IMG/VR virus record: IMGVR_UViG_3300042890_000162
Coordinates: 1-38,283 of that record
Reading direction: 5' to 3' (one strand)
DNA from: a virus
DNA: 38,283 nucleotides
The notes below the pieces were generated by a model. That model was not told the DNA's origin. It did no database searches and worked only from the letters and a program-made list of their open reading frames with translations. The position numbers were made by a program, and so were the translations under genes. Positions 28,805-30,338 of this stretch are shown here, piece after piece (position 1 is the first letter of the stretch; the number at the start of each line of letters is the position of its first letter).

Positions 28805-28822
28805 CGGTCGGCCAGCCGACCG
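28805..28822. repeat. GGTCGGC dyad, copy 1 (CA centre)
   Basis: CGGTCGGCCAGCCGACCG. Arms GGTCGGC/GCCGACC flank a CA centre; the outer C/G also pair. Lies 34 bases upstream of the -35 of promoter P1, so it could bind an activator or repressor of that promoter. Confidence 0.85.
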
Positions 28823-30009: not shown

Positions 30010-30038
30010 TTGACCCGATAATCTTTACATGCTAGAAT
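30010..30038 (+). promoter_or_regulatory. Promoter P3, sigma-70 type
   Basis: TTGACC (30010-30015), 17-bp spacer, TAGAAT (30033-30038), directly after the TAA of the previous gene. It drives a 150-base structured leader before the gene at 30195. Confidence 0.75.
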
Positions 30039-30044
30039 AAAGCC

Positions 30045-30174
30045 TTAAGCGGATAGCCTACCCTGATTTGGGCAGGTGTTAGGCTGGTGGCTCACGATAG
30101 GTAGTAACGCAGGTGCGAGTCCTGCGGTGAGCGCGTTAGTAACAAATCGTTACTAATCGGTCGGCTAGCCGACC
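30045..30174 (+). ncRNA. Structured leader RNA or small RNA of unknown class
   Basis: Between promoter P3 and the 30195 gene. First element: AGCCTA...TAGGCT enclosing CCTG...CAGG (about 30055-30084). Second: GCTCAC/GTGAGC (30090-30095 with 30127-30132) enclosing a T-arm-like hairpin GCAGG-TGCGAGT-CCTGC (30109-30125). Third: a perfect 8-bp stem TTAGTAAC-AAATC-GTTACTAA (30136-30156). Fourth: dyad copy 5. GTAGTAAC at 30101-30108 can also pair with GTTACTA at 30149-30155, so two folds compete, as in riboswitches. Too short and lacking D and anticodon arms for a tRNA. Confidence 0.5.
30158..30174. repeat. GGTCGGC dyad, copy 5 (TA centre)
   Basis: CGGTCGGCTAGCCGACC, one base after the 8-bp stem-loop of the P3 leader and seven bases before the GAAAGG of the 30195 gene. 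The preceding CTAAT is shared with copy 7. Confidence 0.85.
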
Positions 30175-30194
30175 ATGTACTGAAAGGTTATAAA

Positions 30195-30338
30195 ATGTAC
30201 CTACAAACAAGTGATGTGTTTGCAATAACACTCGCACTATTCGCAGTAAATGTTGTTCTAGTCCTTGCATTTCGTAGAGTGTATGTACTAGAGAAGCAAA
30301 TCATTAAGTTGCGCCGACAGATTAGAGAGGCAAAGTGA
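30195..30338 (+). CDS. Small single-span membrane protein
   Basis: Forty-seven residues: short N-terminus, a membrane span about residues 8-26 (VFAITLALFAVNVVLVLAF), then a basic amphipathic tail (RRVYVLEKQIIKLRRQIREA). Basic residues after the span predict the tail in the cytoplasm. GAAAGG is seven bases upstream. Its stop overlaps the next start (TGATG). Possibly a membrane-targeted inhibitor or exclusion protein; not assignable. Confidence 0.7.
   Translation: MYLQTSDVFAITLALFAVNVVLVLAFRRVYVLEKQIIKLRRQIREAK

Follow-up and report, generated by a model that had tools for sequence, protein, structure and literature searches.

Bacterial RNase P recognises its substrates through the T-loop/elbow, a 12-bp ruler, G+1 and a 3' RCC, the pairing partner of the GGU motif in RNase P RNA, and strong NAIM interference was reported at G19, G53, A58 and G71 (PMC11143913; PMC4975455). 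Model hairpins consisting of an acceptor-T-arm are cleaved by E. coli RNase P RNA, and the natural substrates include phage RNAs and mRNAs; C4 antisense RNA of P1/P7, phage M3 RNA and T4 gene 32 mRNA are processed by the host enzyme (PMC11143913). In the tRNA elbow, residue 18 contacts residue 55 and residue 19 pairs with residue 56 (PMC4810234).

As kinds, neither tRNA-like structures nor RNase P sites in mRNA are new. The tRNA-like domain of tmRNA has an acceptor and a T-arm with a D-loop strand and no D-stem, as has the half tRNA described here, which differs in having no mRNA-like tag, no alanine identity and no CCA. The tRNA-like structure of Turnip yellow mosaic virus (PMC4810234) is a viral RNA that keeps the D-loop/T-loop elbow and diverges elsewhere; it differs in lying at the 3' end of a plant RNA virus genome and in its pseudoknotted acceptor. 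The plant mitochondrial t-elements (PMC4368725) are tRNA-like structures in mRNA UTRs and proposed RNase P sites. They belong to a eukaryotic organelle with a protein-only RNase P, and their likeness to the present leader is one of structure.

Location and anatomy of the leader

The window, that is, the whole stretch of DNA analysed, comprises 38,283 nucleotides (IMG/VR record IMGVR_UViG_3300042890_000162). The leader lies directly 3' of a promoter and 5' of the 47-aa membrane-type ORF that starts at 30195 and that the initial annotation had correctly described. The features are as follows.

30010-30038, + strand: promoter, read from sequence; -35 TTGACC (30010-30015), 17-nt spacer, -10 TAGAAT (30033-30038)
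30055-30085, + strand: 5' hairpin P0; AGCCTA/TAGGCT, inner CCTG/CAGG, loop ATTTGGG
30086-30089, + strand: single-stranded spacer GGTG, 4 nt; RNase P cut predicted at 30089/30090
30090-30095, + strand: acceptor-like stem, 5' strand GCTCAC; partner 30127-30132; 100% paired, with UA/CG and CG/UA double changes
30096-30107, + strand: D-loop-like linker GATAGGTAGTAA; A30099 is tRNA position 18 and G30100 position 19
30108-30126, + strand: T-arm, stem CGCAGG/CCTGCG; 100% paired, with double changes in 5/6 pairs
30114-30120, + strand: T-loop TGCGAGT; G30115 is position 55, C30116 position 56, A30118 position 58
30127-30132, + strand: acceptor-like stem, 3' strand GTGAGC; abuts the T-stem strand, giving a 12-bp stack
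30133-30134, + strand: R73-C74-like tail, G C, no CCA; R then C in 38/38 distinct cores
30136-30156, + strand: 3' hairpin TTAGTAAC-AAATC-GTTACTAA; other, still complementary, arm sequences in relatives
30159-30174, + strand: palindrome GGTCGGCTAGCCGACC, a repeat typical of this phage, outside the tRNA-like core
30195-30338, + strand: operon gene 1, tiny single-span membrane protein, 47 aa
30338-30523, + strand: gene 2, conserved 61-aa protein (MYPTADELMEN...)
30755-32005, + strand: Amidoligase_2 gene (Pfam PF12224, E 1.5e-10)
32006-32848, + strand: gene after the amidoligase, weakly like class II glutamine amidotransferases (Pfam E 5e-5, below cut-off; PHROG 25883, E 9e-34)

A ribosome-binding site 3' of the palindrome is the last element of the leader. 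The -35/17/-10 layout was also present 5' of most relatives. Across relatives the P0 stem changes in sequence and its loop TTGGG is kept in most, and the spacer GGTG was found in 30/38 distinct cores. In L022 and L093, P0 and the stop codon of the preceding gene overlap.

The palindrome GGTCGGCYAGCCGACC occurs at 28806, 29537, 29730, 29843, 30159, 30725, 31973, 32850 and 33763, mostly right before genes (nine sites, against 0.3 chance matches). Relatives carry other palindromes at the same place, recurring in their own contigs (TTCGGTTAACCGAA, TCCGTTTAAACGGA and GTCGGGATATCCCGAC). These palindromes are perhaps operators of a phage regulator.

Searches and folding statistics

The folding energy of the leader was -51.6 kcal/mol, against -45.1 in shuffles (z -1.82), which is only mildly unusual. 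The window contains a single instance of the exact architecture (6+6 bp stacked stems, T-loop and a linker of 9-18 nt); Markov-resampled windows averaged 0.005 instances. The leader had been said to match no riboswitch or ribozyme class, and indeed no Rfam 15 family of any kind reached its gathering score there; at E up to 10 only chance-level matches appeared (Plastid-ycf2 on the reverse strand, E 0.048; P15, E 7.4). Neither a tRNA nor a tmRNA was called in the window by ARAGORN, and RF00005 (tRNA) gave no window match at E up to 10. A full cloverleaf that includes the 5' hairpin was considered and rejected: it received a weak ARAGORN call only in L004/L005 (one relative contig) and breaks conserved stems. 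An extended acceptor with a bulge, GTG-G-CTCAC/GTGAG-CGC, was likewise rejected, being lost in L022 and L023.

DNA similarity to annotated phages was found neither for the locus nor for the core, and bacterial contigs of GTDB contained no match to the core pattern and no relative of the amidoligase. Elsewhere, the window carries a WhiB-like gene and has DNA in common (77% identity) with phage E7, a phage of the freshwater actinobacterium Planktophila (PMC10202952); the host is therefore probably a member of the order Nanopelagicales, abundant freshwater actinobacteria. Phage E7 itself has a candidate cousin of the core between two genes (OX376640; L156 2140-2220, - strand), GCCCCC-15 nt-CGTAGG-TTCAAGA-CCTACG-GGGGGC-ACT, for which 0.07 occurrences were expected by chance. 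No such element was found in the cultured phage F5, from the same host order.

Covariation of the stems in relatives

Relatives were collected by a protein search with the downstream amidoligase (20 IMG/VR loci), by a 17-nt T-arm pattern (68 stretches, some of them ordinary phage tRNAs) and by further patterns, which added more. Structure-based scanning yielded 53 distinct loci, and about 50 distinct IMG/VR relatives carry the core GCTCAC-linker-CGCAGG-TGCGAGT-CCTGCG-GTGAGC. In this plan two 6-bp stems, one acceptor-like and one T-like with its T-loop, stack on each other with no gap, and a strand of 12-18 nt with no conserved stem takes the place of the D and anticodon arms. On the 3' strand the 12-bp stack (7+5 in tRNA) is unbroken in all distinct cores except L140, which has one mismatch.

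The real proof of the leader structure is covariation in relatives. In a first alignment of 35 loci, which was not fitted to the structure and was gap-free in the core, 420/420 core-helix cells were paired and double changes were present. After distant variants were added, a second alignment gave 348/348 paired cells and both-side changes in 7/12 pairs (slid controls, 34-49% of cells paired); it was fitted to the structure and its counts are biased towards it. Acceptor versions included GCTCAC/GTGAGC, GCTTAC/GTAAGC, GCCCAC/GTGGGC and GCCTAT/ATAGGC. Compensatory changes were thus plentiful; their absence, which the initial annotation had named as the refuting outcome, was not observed, and the stems covary just 3' of the promoter, where a structured leader had been proposed. 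Judged from these comparisons, the leader is genuine and is held by natural selection across many phages.

The helices named in the initial annotation lie where it placed them (GCAGG-TGCGAGT-CCTGC at 30109-30125, GTAGTAAC at 30101, TTAGTAAC at 30136 and GTTACTAA at 30149), and the 8-bp stem at 30136-30156 is also present. Its T-arm mimic is genuine and was incomplete: the outer stem (30090-30095/30127-30132), the D-loop-like linker and the RC tail had been missed, and with these the core reads as a tRNA-like elbow. The proposed switch between helices competing for 30149 did not survive comparison, since the 7-bp match of 30101-30108 with 30149-30156 occurs only in this window. In the 37 other cores with such a hairpin, the linker matched the 3' arm of the downstream hairpin over at most 5 bp, mostly 2-4.

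The elbow

The T-loop of the relatives is either TGCRANT or the canonical tRNA form TTCRANT. A G at loop position 2 (tRNA 55) always goes with AG at linker positions 4-5 (tRNA 18-19), and a T there with GG. This rule held in 34/34 distinct cores (21 G-type and 13 T-type) with zero exceptions; some of the scans preset the linker or the loop. Among loci fetched irrespective of linker and loop, it was exceptionless when full 6+6 bp cores were read. On a tree of the amidoligase proteins at least six loop switches fell on supported branches, and both sites changed in 6/6 independent pairs (sign test, p 0.031). In several cases the whole linker was switched together with the loop, and cassette exchange by recombination may count as a single step of the switch. 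Smaller-looking changes were GAAAGG/TGC vs GAAGGG/TTC and GCTAGA/TGC vs GCTGGT/TTC.

Because of this co-switch and of the 18-55 and 19-56 contacts of tRNA, the linker is expected to dock on the T-loop; the 34/34 cores and 6/6 independent switches indicate that the elbow forms. By comparison of sequences, the core is thereby shown to retain a tRNA elbow and to lack the D-stem, the anticodon arm and CCA. It shares with tRNA-like structures a 12-bp coaxial acceptor-T stack with T-loop, the 18-55 covariation and an invariant G19-C56; an anticodon arm, a D-stem and an RF00005 score, which would mark a tRNA gene, are absent.

In the phage tRNAs of the fetched contigs, whose D-loops were classed by the crude rule of containing GG or AG, 66 were T55-GG, 62 G55-AG, 4 G55-GG and 4 T55 with neither; the rule seen in the cores is followed here too, against 4 exceptions. 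An apparent A18-G55 pair (TGCRANT T-loop with AG D-loop, in place of TTC with GG) was seen in many phage tRNAs, those of L027, L030, L033-L036, L042, L044 and others. Earlier reports of A18-G55 pairs were not found in a literature search, which does not exclude them.

Synteny and a second structured RNA

The core was present in 19/19 loci from the protein search with enough upstream sequence. Of 90 core-bearing stretches (duplicates included), 80 had the amidoligase gene about 0.4-0.85 kb 3' of the core, its product 42-100% identical; in the other 10 the 2.4 kb examined held no match to the amidoligase, in several cases because the stretch ends early. The interval from core to amidoligase encodes a tiny protein (42-68 aa, with a hydrophobic segment) and a second short protein, which is conserved. 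At least two families that look unrelated are represented among the tiny proteins; in L068 a protein that is not of the membrane type takes their place. There is one core per phage, strongly kept whichever tiny protein comes next. Some relatives lack a separate promoter, the core following immediately after the upstream ORF.

In many relatives a second structured RNA, of about 95 nt, lies directly 3' of the half tRNA (L062 4209-4303, - strand; L093 798-892; L023 3453-3547; also L130-L133 and L137-L145). It has a 12-bp closing stem, two inner hairpins, a near-invariant CAATCAGCAGGGAAACCTGAAATGATG and a loop TGCCATACCAT, and double changes were found in 7/30 predicted pairs. The loop CATACC could pair alternatively with GGTATG in the closing stem. 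Rfam gave no match for this RNA in L062 and L093. In L135 (5733-5827, - strand) and L136 (1508-1602, - strand) it stands ahead of another gene (MARGNNRTINVKIPTA...) with no half tRNA beside it, which identifies it as an independent module.

A predicted RNase P substrate and its alternatives

The explanation favoured here, tentatively and with a probability of about 45%, is that the half tRNA is a natural minimal substrate of host RNase P. The enzyme would land on the T-loop/D-loop elbow of the leader, use the 12-bp stack as its ruler, recognise R73-C74 and cleave at 30089/30090. P0 would be released, and the mRNA of the amidoligase operon would gain a defined 5'-monophosphate end under a stable fold cap; in relatives with the core right after an upstream gene, the cut would split two cistrons. 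This site is predicted since the determinants are kept (the T-loop and the 12-bp ruler; G+1 in 34/34 cores; G19, G53, A58 and G71 invariant; R73-C74 in 38/38), since acceptor-T-arm hairpins are cleaved and since phage substrates are known. It also fits that the missing part, the anticodon arm, is dispensable for RNase P and that the core stands behind its own promoter or behind upstream ORFs, as a processing site may. Against it, position 75 is C in 0/38 cores, so that only two of the three RCC pairs with the GGU motif are possible, the -1 base is G or A (C once) instead of the favoured U, and the 4-nt gap between P0 and the cut site could hinder the enzyme. The absence of such an element from phage F5 counts against it as well. 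The invariant positions all belong to general tRNA architecture, and another elbow binder could be what selects them.

Such a binder is central to the next most probable reading, to which we give clearly less weight: the half tRNA would be bound in cis and left uncut, a reader of the elbow or T-arm (ribosome, EF-Tu, RNase Z, an aminoacyl-tRNA synthetase or a tRNA-modifying enzyme) controlling translation or stability of the operon. Ribosome, RNase P, T-boxes and numerous proteins all target the elbow (PMC4810234), each of the 19 protein-search loci with enough upstream sequence has the core ahead of the operon, and the absent C75 would suit RNase Z, which acts on CCA-less tRNAs. RNase P is nevertheless the simplest explanation of the R73-C74 invariance and of the 12-bp length; a synthetase would have no anticodon or CCA, and pseudouridine-55 synthase is excluded as reader because T-loop position 55 is often G. 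That the leader is a plain protecting or insulating fold, whose 5' hairpins slow decay and whose tRNA likeness is incidental, is unlikely: it begins at the promoter and has three or four stable helices, as such a fold might, yet the T-loop, the 18-55 co-switch and the invariant G19-C56 and R73-C74 would go unexplained. Release of the core as a free small RNA or decoy, titrating a tRNA-processing factor or working in trans, would agree with its single copy per phage and its conservation independent of the type of tiny protein. The fixed site before one operon, maintained at 42-100% protein identity, favours action in cis, and no terminator follows the core; we hold release to be slightly less likely still than a plain fold.

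It is improbable, though conceivable, that the half tRNA is an RNA handle or cofactor recognised by the products of the amidoligase operon in order to modify a peptide, for example the tiny membrane protein, and so more than a site of processing. Two further readings are contradicted by comparison and are given very little credence. A riboswitch with two competing helices could draw on the 7-bp alternative pairing of the window, which is missing in relatives, whereas the core pairs are kept in all; a T-box or other two-state leader was rejected likewise, there being no conserved alternative pairing. The T-arm is the same in kind as those of phage tRNAs, as would befit a decaying tRNA gene or a phage attachment site with a tRNA 3' end, but the stems are kept by compensatory changes, anticodon and CCA are lacking and tRNA models fail in the window.

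Comparison with known systems

We know of no report of a half-tRNA elbow in C4 RNA, M3 RNA or T4 gene 32 mRNA, and no description of a half-tRNA leader RNA was found in the literature search. An element of Gordonia phages (Katyusha, Kvothe; L112, L152, L153) is intergenic and has an 11-bp acceptor-T stack, a CTAG/GTAG linker, TGCGAGT and an RC tail; the group was found via the same 17-nt T-arm, so that this part of the likeness is not independent evidence. Its context is unrelated, and some members have a long interior instead of the short linker. At one intergenic site of Demosthenesvirus (Gordonia phages; L112 2501-2543, L152, L153), Katyusha has a half tRNA, and Kvothe and ASerpRocky have instead a long tRNA-like RNA that shares its acceptor end and has a TTCGATT loop. 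These elements are unannotated and lie 5' of a terminator-like hairpin.

What is new, with no Rfam family and no paper found, is a conserved half tRNA that leads a phage operon and combines a D-loop strand with the 18-55 switch. Its carriers infect very abundant freshwater actinobacteria, about whose gene control very little is known, and the switch, seen in half tRNAs and in phage tRNAs, allows the requirements of the tRNA elbow to be tested cleanly. The closest likeness in design is to the minihelix RNase P substrates of the pATSer type (PMC4975455), which also have an acceptor-T stack, a 7-nt T-loop, a 5' leader and a 3' RC. Those are laboratory designs with a full RCCA, whereas the present element is natural, has a conserved D-loop-like strand and lacks CCA. 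If the RNase P reading is true, the mRNA of a bacterial virus would contain a minimal RNase P target that is natural and conserved, the counterpart of that laboratory model substrate.
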